A DNA stretch of 64,000 nucleotides. It comes from Desulfosudis oleivorans. Its GTDB lineage: Bacteria > Desulfobacterota > Desulfobacteria > Desulfobacterales > SURF-7. The translations under genes were made by a program, and so were the position numbers. Shown here one piece after another: positions 1,871 to 43,382 of the stretch. The DNA lies in the NCBI GenBank assembly GCA_020723325.1, contig DYJD01000018.1, positions 62,001 to 126,000 on the forward strand. The letters run 5' to 3'. Position 1 is the stretch's first letter. Each line of letters opens with the position of its first letter. The notes below the pieces were generated by a model. It was not told the origin of the DNA and did no database searches. It saw only the letters and a list, made by a program, of their open reading frames with translations.

Positions 1871-3850
1871 ATGAAGCTCGATAAAGCGGATGCCGGCGGA
1901 TCTGAAAAAGCGCGGATGGCCGAGAAACTGCTGGAAAGCGAGGCGCGGCTTCAATTTTTTTCAGCAGCCACTTCCGAAGGCATCATCATTCACGAGGGCG
2001 GCCGCATCGTCGACGTGAATCAACGGGGCCTTGAGATCTACGGCTACCAATTGGAAGAGATGATCGGCATGGATGTGGCGGAGACCTGGGCTCCGGAGGA
2101 TCGGGATAAAATCCAGGCCCATATCCTGGCTAAAACCGAAACGCTCTATGAAGCCGCCGGAGTGCGCAAGGACGGATCGCGGATTCATTGCGAAGTCATC
2201 GCCCGCAATCTGAAATGGAACGGCAAACATGTCCGCATCGCCTTGATCCGGGACATGACCGATCGAAAAAAGCGGGAAACCGAACTGCGCCGGGCCGAGA
2301 AGGAACGTTCCTTGTTGATTTCGGCGGTGGAGCAATCGGCCGAGGTCATTATCATCACTGATACCAAAGGCATTATCGAATATGTCAACTCCGCCTTCAG
2401 CAAAATCACCGGATATTGGAAGAATGAAGCCCTGGGCCGGGACATCCGGTTCTTGCGCAGCGACCGGCAGGAGCGCGGTTTTCACCGCCGGATTTGGCAG
2501 ATGCTGGCCGAAGGCAATGCGTGGAAAGGGCGGTTGATCTGCCAAAAGAAGGATGGCGGCTATTTCACTTCAGAGACCTCCATCTCACCCATTTTTGATC
2601 CGGATGGGGTGATCGTGAACTATATCGGCGGAATGCATGATGTCAGCGCCATGGTGAAACTGGAGGAGCAGTACCAGCAGTCCCAGAAGATGGAGACCAT
2701 CGGCACCTTGGCCGGGGGCATCGCCCATGATTTCAACAATATTTTATATGCCGCCATGGGTTTCACGGAACTGGCTTACAATGATGTGCCCAAAGGCTCC
2801 AGGGCCGCCGTCTGCCTGGAAAGCATCATGGCTTCCCACAAGCGCGCCTCGGATCTGATCAACCAGATACTGACCTTCAGCCGCCAGAACAAACAGGACC
2901 GCAAACCCATCCGGATTCAGCCGGCCCTGAAGGAAGCGGTGAAGCTGATCCGCAAAATCATCCCGACCAATATTGAGATTAGGCAGAAGATCAACGCGGA
3001 TTGCGGTCCGATTCTGGCCGATGCCATCCAGATTCACCAGATCGTCATGAACCTTTGTACCAACGCCTTCCACGCCATGCAGGAAAAGGGTGGAGTCATG
3101 ACCATTCGCCTGGATTCCATTCGGGTTGGGCCGGAAAGGAGTCACCTGGGGGTTAGCCTTGAGCCGGGGTATTATATCGTCCTGGAGGTGGCGGACACGG
3201 GCGTCGGCATGGACGCGGCGGTGCTGAAACGTATTTTCGAGCCGTTTTTCACCACCAAGGAAGTGGGCAAGGGCACGGGCCTGGGATTGGCCACGGTTCA
3301 TGGAATCGTGAAAGAGTACGACGGCGTGATCCATGTCACCAGTGAACCCGGCCGGGGTTCAAGCTTTTTCGTTTTCTTCCCGGCCTGCCCCCAGGAAGAG
3401 GTCGTCAACCTCAAGGCCGAAGACCTGGCCGACCTGAAGGGCACGGAAAGAATCTTGTTTGTGGACGATGATGAAATGATCGTGCGTTTTGCCGAGCGAT
3501 CCTTGAAAAGCAAAGGCTATGATATCCATTCGCGTTCCAATGGCATGGAGGCGCTGGAGGCTTTCCGTGCCGATCCCCATCGTTACGACGTGGTGGTGAC
3601 CGACATGAACATGCCGCGCATGACCGGCACGGAATTGGCTGAAAAAATATTGCAAATCCGGCCGGAAATGCCCATCATTCTCTGCACCGGCTTTAGTGAA
3701 GCCATTTCCAAGGAAAAAATGCAGGCCATGGGAATCGTCGAGCTTCTATACAAGCCGGTGATAACCAAAAAACTGTTGAAAGCCATACGCACGGCAATGG
3801 ATAAAGAGCAACAAAAGGAGCTGAACCATGAAGCGAATTCTGGTGATTGA
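1871..3850 (+). CDS. PAS-PAS hybrid histidine kinase with C-terminal receiver
   Basis: Cytosolic two-component sensor of 659 residues. The ATG at 1871 is chosen over one at 1832 because AAGGTG precedes it at good spacing. Two PAS domains (about 20-135 and 145-265), HisKA with the H-box [19 protein letters not shown] (His286), HATPase_c with DTGVGM and [11 protein letters not shown], then a receiver (about 530-645) with phospho-acceptor Asp578 in [12 protein letters not shown]. This HDFNN kinase class usually works with short receivers, and the next gene, overlapping by 23 bases, is one. The phosphate path (kinase, own receiver, partner receiver) is inferred. There are no membrane segments; the ligand is unknown. 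Confidence 0.95.
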
Positions 3851-4196
3851 TGATGAACAACTGGTCCGCACCATGCTGCGCATGACCCTGGAGGAAGCGG
3901 GCTATGCAGTGGCGGAGGCGGCCGACGGCGATGAAGGCATCCGGCTGTACAACGAAAAAGGGGCGGACGTGATCATCACCGATTTGGTCATGCCCGAGAA
4001 AGAAGGTATTGAAACCATCCTGGAGTTGAAAAAGAAACATCCCGATGTGAAGATCATCGCCATTTCCGGTGGCGGCCGGGTGAAGCCGGAGAACTATCTC
4101 ACCGTTGCCAAATCCATGGGGGTGCGCCACGCCTTTGCCAAGCCGGTGGAGAAGGAGGTGTTGTTGAGGGCGGTGGCGGAGCTTTGCGGGGAGTAG
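3828..4196 (+). CDS. Single-domain response regulator (CheY-like)
   Basis: A stand-alone receiver of 122 residues with all key positions: acidic pair Asp9-Asp10, phospho-acceptor Asp52 (ITDLVMPEKEG), Ser80 in the Thr/Ser position and Lys105 (FAKPVEKE). There is no output domain. It overlaps the end of the preceding hybrid kinase by 23 bases, so the two are translationally coupled and probably partners. It could relay phosphate to an HPt protein or act by protein contact; the target is not visible. A hexamer inverted-repeat element follows directly. Confidence 0.93.
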   Translation: MKRILVIDDEQLVRTMLRMTLEEAGYAVAEAADGDEGIRLYNEKGADVIITDLVMPEKEGIETILELKKKHPDVKIIAISGGGRVKPENYLTVAKSMGVRHAFAKPVEKEVLLRAVAELCGE

Positions 4197-7932: not shown

Positions 7933-7960
7933 GTAAGGGCGGTTCGCGAACCGCCCCTAC
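7933..7960. repeat. REP-like palindrome E, copy 1
   Basis: GTAAGGGCGGTTCGCGAACCGCCCCTAC is a nearly perfect palindrome just after the receptor stop codon. Copies are at 30668-30692 and 43355-43382, also just after gene ends. It can fold as a strong hairpin and may stabilise or end transcripts (inferred). Confidence 0.85.
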
Positions 7961-25341: not shown

Positions 25342-28300
25342 ATGGTGAATTTCGGGCTGGATGAGCGCTTGACGGAAGAGGCCATTGCCCTGGCGGAGAA
25401 GTGGCAGGAGCGGGCCAATGACTTGCTGACCTTTGAGGAACGGGGGATTCAGGAGCAGATGCTGCGGCTCCTGACCCACCCCCTGGACAAAGTGGTCCTG
25501 ACCCGCCTGATCGACCAGAGCTTCCGCTCGGCCAACCCGGCCCGGGTGGCGGATCAGATCAGCAACCTGCTCCACGAATACGGGGTGCCGGATTTCTTTT
25601 CCTCAGTGGAAAAGCTCTTGGCCCAGATGTTCCTCAGCATCGGCCGGCATATCCCCAGTTTTTCCGTGCCGCGCATGATCGGCAAGATGCGCCATGACAG
25701 CAGCCGCGCCATCATTCCCGGGGAAGCGGAGGTGCTGCACGCCCATTTGCGCAAGCGCAAGAAGCAGGGTGTGCGCATGAACATCAACCATCTGGGCGAG
25801 GCCGTGTTGGGGGAGGCGGAAGCCGAGGCCCGGCTCATGACCTACGTGGACGACCTGCGCAATCCGGAAATCGAGTATATTTCGGTTAAAATCTCCACCA
25901 TCTATTCCCAGATCCAGCCCCTGGCTTTTGAGCATACCATCGCTGTTTTAAAAGAAAGACTGGGCCTGCTGTTTCAGACCGCGGCGGAAAACCGTTTTGT
26001 CCGGGAGGACGGCACGGTGGTGCCCAAATTCGTCAATCTGGACATGGAGGAATACCGGGACCTGGCCATCACGGCCCAGGTCTTTCAGACAACTTTGGAT
26101 GAACCCCGCTTTCAGCAGCATTCCGCCGGCATCGTGCTTCAGGCCTATTTACCGGACTCCTTTCCCATGCAGCAGGCAATCACCGCCTGGGCTAAAAAGC
26201 GCTTGGAAAAGGGCGGCAGCCCCATCAAGATCCGCATTGTCAAGGGCGCCAACATGGAGATGGAGATGCTGGAGGCCGCCCTGCAGAACTGGCCCCTTGC
26301 GGTTTATGACCGCAAATTGTTCGTGGACGCCAACTACAAGCGCATGGTGACCTTCGGCCTTAAACCGGAAAACTGCGCCGCGGTGCATCTGGGCATTGCC
26401 TCCCACAATTTGTTCGAACTGGCCTATGCGGCGGTGCTGGCCCGCCGCGACAACGTCACGGCAGGGTTCAGTTTTGAAATGCTGGAGGGCATGGCTGATC
26501 ATATCCGGCGGGCCATTTGCGAAGCCGGCGGGGAAATGGTCATGTATGCGCCGGTGGCCACCCGCGAGCAGTTCATCAGCGCCATTGCCTACCTGATCCG
26601 CAGATTGGATGAAAATACGGCCCCGGAGAATTATCTGCGTTACGCCCCGGGCCTCACGGTGGATTCCCAAGCCTGGGACTTTCTCAAGGAACGCTTTCGG
26701 GAATCCTGCGCTTATATTAATCAACCCAAGACCGGCCCCCATCGCATCCAAAACCGGCTCACGGAAACCTTTCCGGAAAAAATGGGTACCTATCATTATC
26801 GCCGTTTCGTGAACGAAGCGGATACGGATTTTTGCCTTGGGGCCAACCGGGAATGGGCCCAGGGGATCAGGGACAAGTGGAAAAAGGGGCCGGGGGATGA
26901 GCCGCCCGTGATTCCCCTGGTGATCGCGGGCCGGGAAATCAGCGCCGGCCGGGACCAGCGGGATTGTCTGGACCCTTCCCAGTTGCCCCGCAAAATCGCT
27001 GTGGCCCGCTATGTGAAAGCCGAGGCAACGGATATTGAACAGGCCGTGGCAACCGCCCAGGCTGATCCCGACGGCTGGCGCCGCCAAAGCCTTGCGCAGC
27101 GCCACCTGCTGCTTTCCGGTGTGGCCCGGCAATTGCGCCAGCGGCGCGGCGATCTCATAGGCGCGGCCATGGCCTGCACCGGCAAACTGCTCACGGAAGC
27201 CGACGTGGAAGTATCCGAAGCCGTGGATTTTGCCGAGTACTATCCCTATTCGGCCGCTGCTTTTGACAGTCGGCCGGGTCTTGAAAGTCGCGGCAGAGGC
27301 GTGGGGCTGATCCTGTCTCCCTGGAATTTTCCCATTGCTATTCCCTGCGGCGGCATCATGACGGCCCTTGCGGCCGGTAATACCGTGCTGTTCAAGCCCT
27401 CGTCCGAGGCGGTGCCGGTCGCCCATGAATTATGTCGTTGTTTCTGGGAGGCGGGGATTTCCCCCAATGTGCTCCAGTTCCTGCCCTGTGACGGATCCGT
27501 AGCCGGCGCGGCCCTGATTGCCAGCCGCGACATCGACTTCGTCATCCTCACCGGCGGCACGGAAACCGGCCTCGCTATTTTGCAGCAGCGGCCGGATTTG
27601 TTGCTGGCGGCGGAAACCGGCGGCAAGAACAGCACCATCGTTACGGCCATGTCCGACCGGGACCAGGCCATTAAAAACGTGGTGTACTCAGCCTTCGGCA
27701 ACAGCGGCCAGAAATGCTCGGCCACCTCCCTGTTGATCCTGGAAAGGGAAGTCTACGAGGATGAGGCCTTTGCGGCCCAGTTGGCCGATGCGGCCCGCAG
27801 CCTGCGGGTGGGGTCCGCCTGGCAATTTGAAACCAGGGTGGGGCCCCTGATCCGTCCGCCGGGCCAGGACCTGCTGCGGGCCTTGACCACCTTGGCAGAA
27901 GGGGAATCCTGGTTGCTCCAGCCCCAAAACATCCATGACAATCCCAATTTATGGACCCCCGGAATCAAATGGGGGGTGCGGCCGGGCTCGGACACCCACC
28001 TCACTGAATTTTTCGGACCTGTTTTAGGGGTCATGGCAGTCGACGACCTGGACCAGGCCATTGCGCTGGCCAACCAGAACGGTTACGGCTTGACAGCCGC
28101 CTTGGAGAGTCTGGACAAGCGCGAACAGGAAGGCTGGAAAAAAGGAATCCAGGTCGGCAACCTGTATATCAACCGGGGCACCACCGGCGCCATCGTGTTG
28201 CGCCAACCCTTTGGCGGCATGAAAAAATCCGCCCTGGGGGCCGGCATCAAGGCCGGCGGCCCCAACTATGTATCCCAGTTCATGGATTTCAACACCACAG

Positions 28301-28989
28301 GCTATCCTGTGACCGGCGCTCTTTTACAGGAAAGTCCCTTGTTGGGCCTGATTCAGGAATGGCGCAGAAAATTGGCCTGGGGCGATTTCGGCGAGGTGCG
28401 CGCGGATCTGCACAAAACCATTCATGCCATTGAGAATTATCTATATTGGATGGAACAGGAATTCGGGATAGTCAAAGACTATTTCCACCTGCGCGGTCAG
28501 GATAATCTTCTGAAATATCTACCGGTGGGTCGGGTGCTGGTGTGCCTGCACCCCCAAGACAGCCTGTTCGAGACCCTGGCCCGCATGGCCGCCGTGCGCA
28601 TCAGCGGCTGCGCGCTTTCCATCAGCGCGCCGCCGGGGCTGGAAAATGGGGTTGTGCGCTTCCTTGCTGGTTACGATGGTTCCAGATTGACGGGCGGAAC
28701 AGTTCTGACCTTTCAGAGTGATGCGGAAATCGCGGCTTCCCTCGCGGATTACCAGCGTATCCGCTATGCCGGGCCGGAAAGAGTTCCCGCGGAAGTATAT
28801 TCCGCCGCTGCCCGCACCGGTTTTTATATTGCGCGCACCCCGGTGCTGATGGATGGCCGGCTGGAATTGCTGCAATACTTCAGGGAGCAGAGTATTTGCG
28901 ACAACTACCATCGTTATGGCAATCTGGGGGAAAGAAGCTTGGAAAAGAAAGTTACTTTTTCGGGGAATTATTATGGATCAGACTTCTGA
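25342..28989 (+). CDS. putA: Bifunctional proline dehydrogenase / P5C dehydrogenase (PutA type)
   Basis: Oxidises proline to glutamate in two steps, the first on FAD and the second with NAD. 1215 residues. The N-terminal proline dehydrogenase barrel (about 1-480) has MNINHLGEAVLGE, VSVK-like ISVKISTIYSQ, IVKGANMEMEM and LGIASHN. The aldehyde dehydrogenase half (about 520-1010) has LSPWNFPIAIPCG, catalytic Glu in AETGGKNS and catalytic Cys in GNSGQKCSAT. About 200 C-terminal residues follow. There is no N-terminal DNA-binding domain, so it is not its own repressor. It overlaps the PilZ gene by 17 bases. Confidence 0.96.
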   Translation: MVNFGLDERLTEEAIALAEKWQERANDLLTFEERGIQEQMLRLLTHPLDKVVLTRLIDQSFRSANPARVADQISNLLHEYGVPDFFSSVEKLLAQMFLSIGRHIPSFSVPRMIGKMRHDSSRAIIPGEAEVLHAHLRKRKKQGVRMNINHLGEAVLGEAEAEARLMTYVDDLRNPEIEYISVKISTIYSQIQPLAFEHTIAVLKERLGLLFQTAAENRFVREDGTVVPKFVNLDMEEYRDLAITAQVFQTTLDEPRFQQHSAGIVLQAYLPDSFPMQQAITAWAKKRLEKGGSPIKIRIVKGANMEMEMLEAALQNWPLAVYDRKLFVDANYKRMVTFGLKPENCAAVHLGIASHNLFELAYAAVLARRDNVTAGFSFEMLEGMADHIRRAICEAGGEMVMYAPVATREQFISAIAYLIRRLDENTAPENYLRYAPGLTVDSQAWDFLKERFRESCAYINQPKTGPHRIQNRLTETFPEKMGTYHYRRFVNEADTDFCLGANREWAQGIRDKWKKGPGDEPPVIPLVIAGREISAGRDQRDCLDPSQLPRKIAVARYVKAEATDIEQAVATAQADPDGWRRQSLAQRHLLLSGVARQLRQRRGDLIGAAMACTGKLLTEADVEVSEAVDFAEYYPYSAAAFDSRPGLESRGRGVGLILSPWNFPIAIPCGGIMTALAAGNTVLFKPSSEAVPVAHELCRCFWEAGISPNVLQFLPCDGSVAGAALIASRDIDFVILTGGTETGLAILQQRPDLLLAAETGGKNSTIVTAMSDRDQAIKNVVYSAFGNSGQKCSATSLLILEREVYEDEAFAAQLADAARSLRVGSAWQFETRVGPLIRPPGQDLLRALTTLAEGESWLLQPQNIHDNPNLWTPGIKWGVRPGSDTHLTEFFGPVLGVMAVDDLDQAIALANQNGYGLTAALESLDKREQEGWKKGIQVGNLYINRGTTGAIVLRQPFGGMKKSALGAGIKAGGPNYVSQFMDFNTTGYPVTGALLQESPLLGLIQEWRRKLAWGDFGEVRADLHKTIHAIENYLYWMEQEFGIVKDYFHLRGQDNLLKYLPVGRVLVCLHPQDSLFETLARMAAVRISGCALSISAPPGLENGVVRFLAGYDGSRLTGGTVLTFQSDAEIAASLADYQRIRYAGPERVPAEVYSAAARTGFYIARTPVLMDGRLELLQYFREQSICDNYHRYGNLGERSLEKKVTFSGNYYGSDF

Positions 28990-30649
28990 ACGCCGTCTTT
29001 ATCCTCGCTCCAATGGCCAGGGGCCGCTTTTATTCGCGGATTACGGTACGGAAAGGTATCAGGATGCCCAGCTTGTGGACTTCGGCATCGGCGGGTTGGC
29101 TTTCGCGACGGACAAGGCCCTTGAACCCGGCGGGGATGTCTGTGTGCGGACAGAAGGGCGCCTGGCCGCGGGTTATGGGGCCAAACTGGCGGGCGGCCTG
29201 CGGGCCGAAGTGGTCTGGTGCCGGCGGCTGGCGGACTCCTTGTCGGACCAGTACCGGGTGGGCGTGGAGTATTACGAGCCGGCCCTGAAATACCAGGATC
29301 GTCCCTGGCGGCGTGCTTACAGCGAGGCTGTTCCCAGACGCCTGACCTATGAAAATACATATATTCCGGAATATCTGGCCCGGACCGCCGGCCGCTTTCC
29401 CCATCGCATGGCCATTTCCTGCGGCCGGGCCGCATTGACCTACGCCGAGCTGGAAGACGGGGTGGGAAGGCTGGCCACCTGTTTGACGGCTTTCGGCATT
29501 CAAAAAGGCGATCATGTGGCCGTGTGCCTGGCGCGCCTGATTCCGGCCGCGACAGCGTATTCAGCCATATTGAAAATCGGTGCCGTGGCGGTTTTGACCG
29601 ATCCCGGGTGCTCCAATCAGACCCTGGCAGGTCAGTTCCGCGATGTGGGCGTGCGGGTGCTGATTTGTCAGGAAGAAGATTACGGGCGGATGCTGGAAAT
29701 CCGGCGCGATTCCGGCATCCGCCAGATCATTTTAAGCGCGGAAAAAGACTATGCCGGCCTTGGGGACCGCATATGGTTGACCCTATCCAAAAAAAAACCG
29801 GGTGGCCGGCCCTGGGGCCGCACTGCGGAAAATATCTATTGCTGGAAAAGGGTCATGGGGGCTTATTCGGTTAATCCGCCCAATACCCGTTTGACTTTTC
29901 AGGACCAGGCCCTTTGTCTTTTCACCCCGGACGCAAAGGGGCGGAAAAGGCGCATTCACTGGGTTTCCCACGGCCTGCTGAGCCGCCAAATCCAGCAATT
30001 GGCAGCCTGGTTTTCCGGTGAAAACGAAAAAATTCTTTCCACCTTTGCCCTGTATGAAGTCCATGGGCTTATCTTTGCCCTTTTCCTGCCCCTTGCCCGG
30101 GGCTGGCAAACGATTATGGCACCGATGAATGTCAAGGAGGGACGCCCATTGCCGGCCGCCATCACGCGCATGAATTTGACCCTGGCATATTTATCGGCCC
30201 ATGACTATGCCGATTTGCTGCATCATCCGGATTTTGACGACGGCTGCGCTGCCGGCATCAAGATTTTCATGACCGGGCAAAGGCCGCTGCCCATGGAGTT
30301 TATCCGGGCCTTTGCCGCCAAAACCGGTCGCAACATCATCAGCGTCTTTGGCTTGGATCATCTGTACCCGGTGACCCACCTGCAGCCCTTGCACGAAGGT
30401 TTGTTCAAAGCCTACAGTATCGGCATCCCGGTGCCGGACTTGGAGTGCCGCATCGTGGACCCGGAAAACGGCAAATCCGACGTGCCGGTGGGAAAAACAG
30501 GCGAGCTGGTGGTTAAAAGCCGGGTTGTCTCGGACAGAGAGTCGGGCGGGTTCAGAGCCGGCCGGCCGGGACGTTTTGCCGGAACGGCCTGGCTGCGCAG
30601 CGGAAGGATGGCCAGGATGGACGAGGACGGCTTCTTTTACCTGGTGTAA
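28973..30649 (+). CDS. PilZ domain fused to a degenerate adenylate-forming domain
   Basis: 558 residues from the ATG at 28973 (GGGGAA upstream). Residues about 5-105 are a PilZ-like domain: R8-x3-R12 (RRLYPRSN) and D36-x4-G41 (VDFGIGGLAF), with Gly where Ser is usual in the second c-di-GMP motif. From about 120 an AMP-binding fold begins (FPHRMAISCGRAALTYAELE). Its catalytic motifs are broken: the P-loop is LFTPDAKGRKRR, the YGxTE motif is FGLDH, and the RTGD motif is LRSGR. It stops at DEDGFFYLV, without the C-terminal lid domain. Probably a sensor or scaffold rather than a ligase (inferred). Confidence 0.85.
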   Translation: MDQTSERRLYPRSNGQGPLLFADYGTERYQDAQLVDFGIGGLAFATDKALEPGGDVCVRTEGRLAAGYGAKLAGGLRAEVVWCRRLADSLSDQYRVGVEYYEPALKYQDRPWRRAYSEAVPRRLTYENTYIPEYLARTAGRFPHRMAISCGRAALTYAELEDGVGRLATCLTAFGIQKGDHVAVCLARLIPAATAYSAILKIGAVAVLTDPGCSNQTLAGQFRDVGVRVLICQEEDYGRMLEIRRDSGIRQIILSAEKDYAGLGDRIWLTLSKKKPGGRPWGRTAENIYCWKRVMGAYSVNPPNTRLTFQDQALCLFTPDAKGRKRRIHWVSHGLLSRQIQQLAAWFSGENEKILSTFALYEVHGLIFALFLPLARGWQTIMAPMNVKEGRPLPAAITRMNLTLAYLSAHDYADLLHHPDFDDGCAAGIKIFMTGQRPLPMEFIRAFAAKTGRNIISVFGLDHLYPVTHLQPLHEGLFKAYSIGIPVPDLECRIVDPENGKSDVPVGKTGELVVKSRVVSDRESGGFRAGRPGRFAGTAWLRSGRMARMDEDGFFYLV

Positions 30650-30667: not shown

Positions 30668-30692
30668 TAGGGCGGTTCGCGCACCGCCCCTA
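30668..30692. repeat. REP-like palindrome E, copy 2
   Basis: TAGGGCGGTTCGCGCACCGCCCCTA lies between two convergent genes and can form a hairpin in both transcripts, so it may serve as a shared terminator. Its CTA gives the stop of the minus-strand gene. Confidence 0.8.
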
Positions 30693-30983
30693 CCGTTTAG
30701 CCCTTGCCCGGAAATGATACTTCAGGGCCGCCCTGAAGTGGCCAGAGGCCAGGAGGGCGGCGGCGATGCCCTGCCGGGATGCGGCGGTGGAACAAAGGCG
30801 GTCGGCCTTGTAAAACAATTTCAAGGCCTCCAGGGCTTGACCGTCCTGCAACAAGGCGGCCGCTTCTGCCCGCATGGCCCCGGCCTTTGCCGAAAGCGCG
30901 CGCAAGTCGTCCACTTCCGTTCCGCAACGGGGGCAGGAAGCTTCTTCTGCTTCGATTTTTTTCCGGCAGGTGGGGCAGTTCAT
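30690..30983 (-). CDS. Zinc-ribbon plus helical (TPR-like) small protein
   Basis: 97 residues. The N-terminus is a zinc ribbon with two CxxC pairs (MNCPTCRKK and ASCPRCGTE). After that, helical pairs with TPR-like spacing (AAALLQDGQALEALKLFYKA, GIAAALLASGHFRAALKYHF). No membrane segment. It is convergent with the PilZ fusion gene and unlinked to the kinase upstream. Probably a protein-protein adaptor; the partner is not evident. Confidence 0.7.
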   Translation of the reverse strand: MNCPTCRKKIEAEEASCPRCGTEVDDLRALSAKAGAMRAEAAALLQDGQALEALKLFYKADRLCSTAASRQGIAAALLASGHFRAALKYHFRARAKR

Positions 30984-43354: not shown

Positions 43355-43382
43355 GTAGGGGCGGTTCGCGAACTGCCCCTAC
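43355..43382. repeat. REP-like palindrome E, copy 3
   Basis: GTAGGGGCGGTTCGCGAACTGCCCCTAC, one mismatch from a perfect palindrome. Lies between leuD and the convergent thioesterase gene, at the edge of the cassette array. Confidence 0.85.

Follow-up and report, generated by a model that had tools for sequence, protein, structure and literature searches.

What does a gene make when it joins a PilZ domain to a ligase-like protein stripped of its catalytic motifs? The question is raised by a gene in a stretch of 64,000 nucleotides from Desulfosudis oleivorans, here called the window. On balance, we lean toward a product that is a regulator rather than an enzyme, in which a PilZ receiver would be coupled to the ATP-dead N-domain of an acyl-CoA ligase of the group that we call clade A. 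That the gene has this fused anatomy, and that its ligase part has lost both the motifs and the lid of its relatives, is confirmed.

The fusion gene and its neighbors

25342..28989, plus strand: putA-type gene (proline dehydrogenase and aldehyde dehydrogenase domains)
28973..30649, plus strand: PilZ/pseudo-acyl-CoA-ligase fusion gene, an open reading frame of 558 amino acids plus stop

A reading made from the sequence alone (the sequence-only reading) had placed the start of the fusion inside putA. The start does lie there: the ATG is within the 3' end of putA, and the two genes overlap by 17 bp. A start at 28973 fits because stand-alone relatives of the PilZ domain start at the same place, and a stretch judged by eye to be G-rich lies immediately upstream of the ATG. 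The GC content of the fusion by codon position (0.61/0.47/0.69) resembles that of neighboring genes, and the fusion is probably translated together with putA. A conserved placement beside putA is unsupported, as among 30 putA loci, tblastn found relatives of the PilZ or ligase part at one, namely, the window's own.

Two further elements follow the fusion. A dispersed palindrome, GGGCGGTTCGCGNACCGCCC, has a copy 21 bp past the stop codon (30670-30689) and two others in the window (7937-7956 and 43359-43378); exact matches in the genome number 58 on the forward and 57 on the reverse strand, and a reversed control gave 0. A small gene of 97 amino acids (30690-30983, minus strand) is convergent with the fusion. 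It matches the zinc ribbon model PF13240 at an E value of 1.1e-4, under the cut-off of that model, and has a weak TPR-like part.

The ligase fold is kept, and its motifs and lid are lost

29378..30526, plus strand: AMP-binding (ANL N-domain) match, residues 136-518
29924..29953, plus strand: P-loop position by alignment, residues 318-327, TPDAKGRKRR, with the catalytic residues gone
30347..30361, plus strand: place of (Y/F)GxTE by alignment, residues 459-463, FGLDH
30599..30607, plus strand: place of TGD by alignment, residues 543-545, SGR
30635..30649, plus strand: C-terminal end, FYLV plus stop, one residue short of the hinge Asp that precedes the lid in relatives

The outline of the AMP-binding fold is retained, as the sequence-only reading had held. 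PF00501 matches at an E value of 3.7e-43, the best Foldseek match of the fusion model is MatB (E 2.9e-30), and structure prediction gave a confident ANL N-domain with pLDDT mostly above 90, a score informative on the N-domain only since the underlying alignment was without relatives for the PilZ part. The known ATP chemistry of ANL enzymes needs both the residues of the ATP-site motifs and the C-terminal lid. When the fusion was aligned with 56 clade A ligases and 17 ligases of a second group, clade B (20 of the 73 being listed), the losses claimed by that reading were all found. The P-loop, YTGGTTGxxKG in relatives, is FTPDAKGRKRR in the window protein, (Y/F)GxTE has become FGLDH, TGD has become SGR, and PFFH has become ALYE. 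The window protein ends in FFYLV, whereas relatives read FFYIVDRKKD and continue into the lid, and a search downstream for a remnant of the lid gave short, weak matches, the best on the other strand at an E value of 0.075 and none of them convincing. Thus, of the features that define an ANL enzyme, the N-domain fold is present and the P-loop, YGxTE, TGD, and a lid after the hinge are absent. Losses are concentrated in the motifs: among columns near-invariant in both clades, the window protein has lost 15 of 19 in the ATP-site motifs versus 26 of the 56 outside them (Fisher p 0.017, with textbook motifs as the motif columns, picked after the alignment was seen).

Matches to the window protein at an E value of 0.001 or better are found in 58 of 59 genomes, and at 1e-60 or better in 190 of 389 genomes of the class, its own genome being included in each count. 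Among the matches listed from those 389 genomes, all but the window's own start no earlier than query residue 69. The ligase part is at most 40% identical to the clade A acyl-CoA ligases of the same order, which resemble the fusion in their N-domain fold and in an N-terminal PW..Y start. Unlike the fusion, the clade A proteins aligned have an intact P-loop, TE, and TGD, keep the lid, and carry no PilZ domain. A further clade A ligase is absent from the window's genome, where the next best match has 28% identity and scores 141 bits, while clade A matches in relatives score at least 218 bits. The nearest NCBIfam model, PRK05605.1 (long-chain-fatty-acid--CoA ligase), gives 167.9 bits versus a cut-off of 766. 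No relative of the fusion was found on viral contigs. Plasmids gave 623 matching records, and of the 5 listed, 4 are annotated as ordinary ligases and 1 is unannotated.

A second fusion of probably separate origin

2193-3863 of locus L181 (G050:C48), minus strand: PilZ-ligase fusion, 556 amino acids from the ATG at L181 3863

A second fusion is encoded by G050, a genome of another family in the same order. Like the window protein, it has the PilZ domain first, has lost the P-loop (PPHNTDQPLG in its place) and the Asp of TGD (now TGI), and ends without a lid at the same hinge (YIKSLD), within one residue of the window's end point. The two are 27% identical overall. Unlike the window protein, the G050 fusion has a clade B ligase part (identity to clade B at most 44%), retains TE in the adenine-side motif, which reads LTE, and has different neighbors, an alpha/beta hydrolase-like open reading frame following it as judged by eye. 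Its losses too fall mainly in the ATP-site motifs (10 of 19 near-invariant columns versus 11 of 57 others, p 0.008, with the same choice of motif columns).

Three overlapping draws of genomes were searched with the N-terminal profile or at stricter thresholds: 389 genomes of the class (N-terminal profile, E of 1e-9 or better, matches listed to about 3.5e-26), 395 of the phylum (1e-32 or better, G050 not among the matches), and 388 of the order (1e-100 or better, the window's genome not among the matches). Among the matches listed, no PilZ-ligase fusion was found beyond these two, in searches that a fusion with a very divergent PilZ or ligase part could escape. Each is the sole fusion in its genus among the genomes examined, and G050's family has no other genome.

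In a tree of 61 rows, including 22 of the 56 clade A ligases, all 17 of clade B, and 20 of 93 other ligases, the window protein nests in clade A and the G050 protein in clade B, both with 100% SH-aLRT support. A tree constrained to unite the two is worse by 87 log-likelihood units (p-AU 0.0073), and each holds its position when the other is removed. A single common ancestor of the fusions is therefore rejected. The terminal branches are very long (2.27 for the window and 1.65 for G050, versus a median of 0.23), which calls for caution, but long-branch attraction would be expected to unite the fusions and not to separate them. The tree suggests that the architecture arose twice by independent fusion or that the ligase part was replaced inside one old fusion.

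The body might instead carry out some other chemistry under c-di-GMP control, for instance as a hydrolase or transferase acting on a bound CoA ester or adenylate. In favor of this, a good fold is predicted for the domain, and G050 retains the TE. We consider this highly improbable, however, as the window protein is without the Lys and Gly residues of the P-loop, the Asp of TGD, PFFH, and the entire lid, and no new set of conserved residues is discernible in the two sequences.

The PilZ domain

28973..29287, plus strand: PilZ domain, residues 1-105, from the PF07238 score and an alignment with 7 relatives

Residues 1-111 of the fusion, taken alone, score 26.2 bits against PF07238, over the Pfam gathering cut-off of 22.5, which bears out a PilZ-like domain in front. 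A scan with the full-length fusion reported no PilZ domain at an E value of 1 or better, and a genome-wide PF07238 search returned 28 PilZ places, none at the fusion locus. Modeled from its single sequence, the domain alone gave an uninformative pLDDT of 42. Residues common to the window domain and seven relatives of the same order include R8, R12, G41, W82, C83, and G97. Stand-alone PilZ proteins of that order (e.g., L183 3506-3940) are 27 to 35% identical to it over the domain and have the same start and the same AEVxWC and YxVGV stretches; unlike the fusion, they have no ligase part, and their second motif mostly has Ser. A PilZ-like open reading frame recognized by eye, with DIGLGG (also Gly for Ser), lies near the stand-alone relative in the window's own genome (L183 2561-3112, contig C110).

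PilZ receptors of c-di-GMP are marked by two motifs, RxxxR and [D/N]xSxxG. The window domain keeps RxxxR (R8 and R12) and reads DFGIGG at the second, where Gly replaces Ser, such that binding of c-di-GMP by the window protein may be weak or lost. Moreover, the G050 domain scores 16.1 bits against PF07238, under the Pfam cut-off. Perhaps PilZ, too, is degenerate and serves for protein contact only, the ligase-like body being a scaffold that acts independently of c-di-GMP. We regard this as distinctly unlikely, as RxxxR is kept in both fusions and the G050 domain has the whole of DxSxxG, Ser included. Signaling by c-di-GMP is likely in the window's host, given the 28 other PilZ places in its genome.

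Probable selection on the reading frame

The gene might instead be a decaying chimera. A PilZ domain and a truncated ligase may have been joined by chance, the body drifting without function and at most the PilZ domain remaining useful. Clade A relatives are intact and free of PilZ, the window's terminal branch is about 10 times the median, and the window protein keeps only 73 of the 163 columns near-invariant in clade A. The sequence-only reading had proposed that close homologues with intact motifs would mark a local pseudogene, and such homologues exist. The inference drawn from them is opposed, however, by the independent G050 fusion, with the same cut and similar motif loss, and by a frame still open on so long a branch, which together make a mere local pseudogene unlikely. 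The G050 protein, moreover, retains 58 of the 82 columns that are near-invariant across clade B.

The open frames were compared with neutral simulations of clade A or B genes, run without indels and under a simple mutation model. At 40 to 44% identity, all 720 simulated genes (120 plus 600) had at least 2 stops, including all 320 from clade A (minimum, 2). At 55 to 60% identity, 719 of 720 had at least 1 stop, and at 70% some of 120 runs were stop free. Both real frames are open, which argues that the frame has been under selection for most of the divergence and is compatible with a decay begun recently. We therefore consider a decaying chimera unlikely.

Proposed role

Our best reading is a recurrent, selected regulator made of a PilZ domain and a pseudo-ligase that would bind or dock and not catalyze. 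It draws on the concentration of losses in the motifs, the second case in G050, the open frames, a PilZ score over the cut-off, a confidently predicted N-domain, a codon-position GC content close to that of the neighbors, and the other PilZ places in the genome. Counted against it are the lone occurrence of each fusion in its genus among the genomes examined, the 26 near-invariant columns lost outside the motifs in the window protein, the change of Ser to Gly in PilZ, and the differing neighborhoods. The sequence-only reading had likewise proposed a c-di-GMP-linked regulator on a dead ligase fold; the dead fold behind PilZ remains the best explanation, and the link to c-di-GMP is one that we infer.

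How such a protein would have arisen and worked can be outlined. In a clade A acyl-CoA ligase, the lid would have been removed from the hinge onward, a PilZ domain would have been added at the N terminus, and the ATP chemistry would have disappeared, with the fold of the N-domain retained. The PilZ domain would most likely read c-di-GMP and thereby change what the ligase-like body binds, which could be another protein, for example, an active ligase, or else a residual acyl ligand. Since the residues and lid for ATP chemistry are absent, a docking or ligand-holding role is simplest. Cotranslation with putA would link the fusion to the use of proline, but only in this genome, because the neighbors differ in G050. 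We speculate, with somewhat less than even confidence, that lidless, ATP-dead N-domains were recruited at least twice independently as PilZ outputs in one order, giving a convergent class of pseudo-ligases that respond to c-di-GMP and either sense fatty acid metabolism or dock to it.

The PilZ effectors BcsA and YcgR likewise couple a PilZ receiver to an attached output domain, but the output of the fusion differs from theirs in being a catalytically stripped ANL N-domain. Among the titles and opening lines of abstracts retrieved, we found no description of PilZ joined to an acyl-CoA ligase. If the proposed role is correct, c-di-GMP signaling would gain an output domain undescribed in those sources, and the ANL fold would have been kept without its chemistry. 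Two independent origins, both truncated at one hinge, would also offer a natural experiment in what a ligase N-domain can do unaided, and both proteins are of a size suited to purification and direct testing.

We note, separately, another PilZ fusion. In genome G008 (L180 1505-2593), one protein of 362 amino acids combines PilZ (32.7 bits) with a zinc ribbon and a nucleotide cyclase domain of class III (PF00211, E 4.9e-21), which may connect c-di-GMP directly to another cyclic nucleotide.
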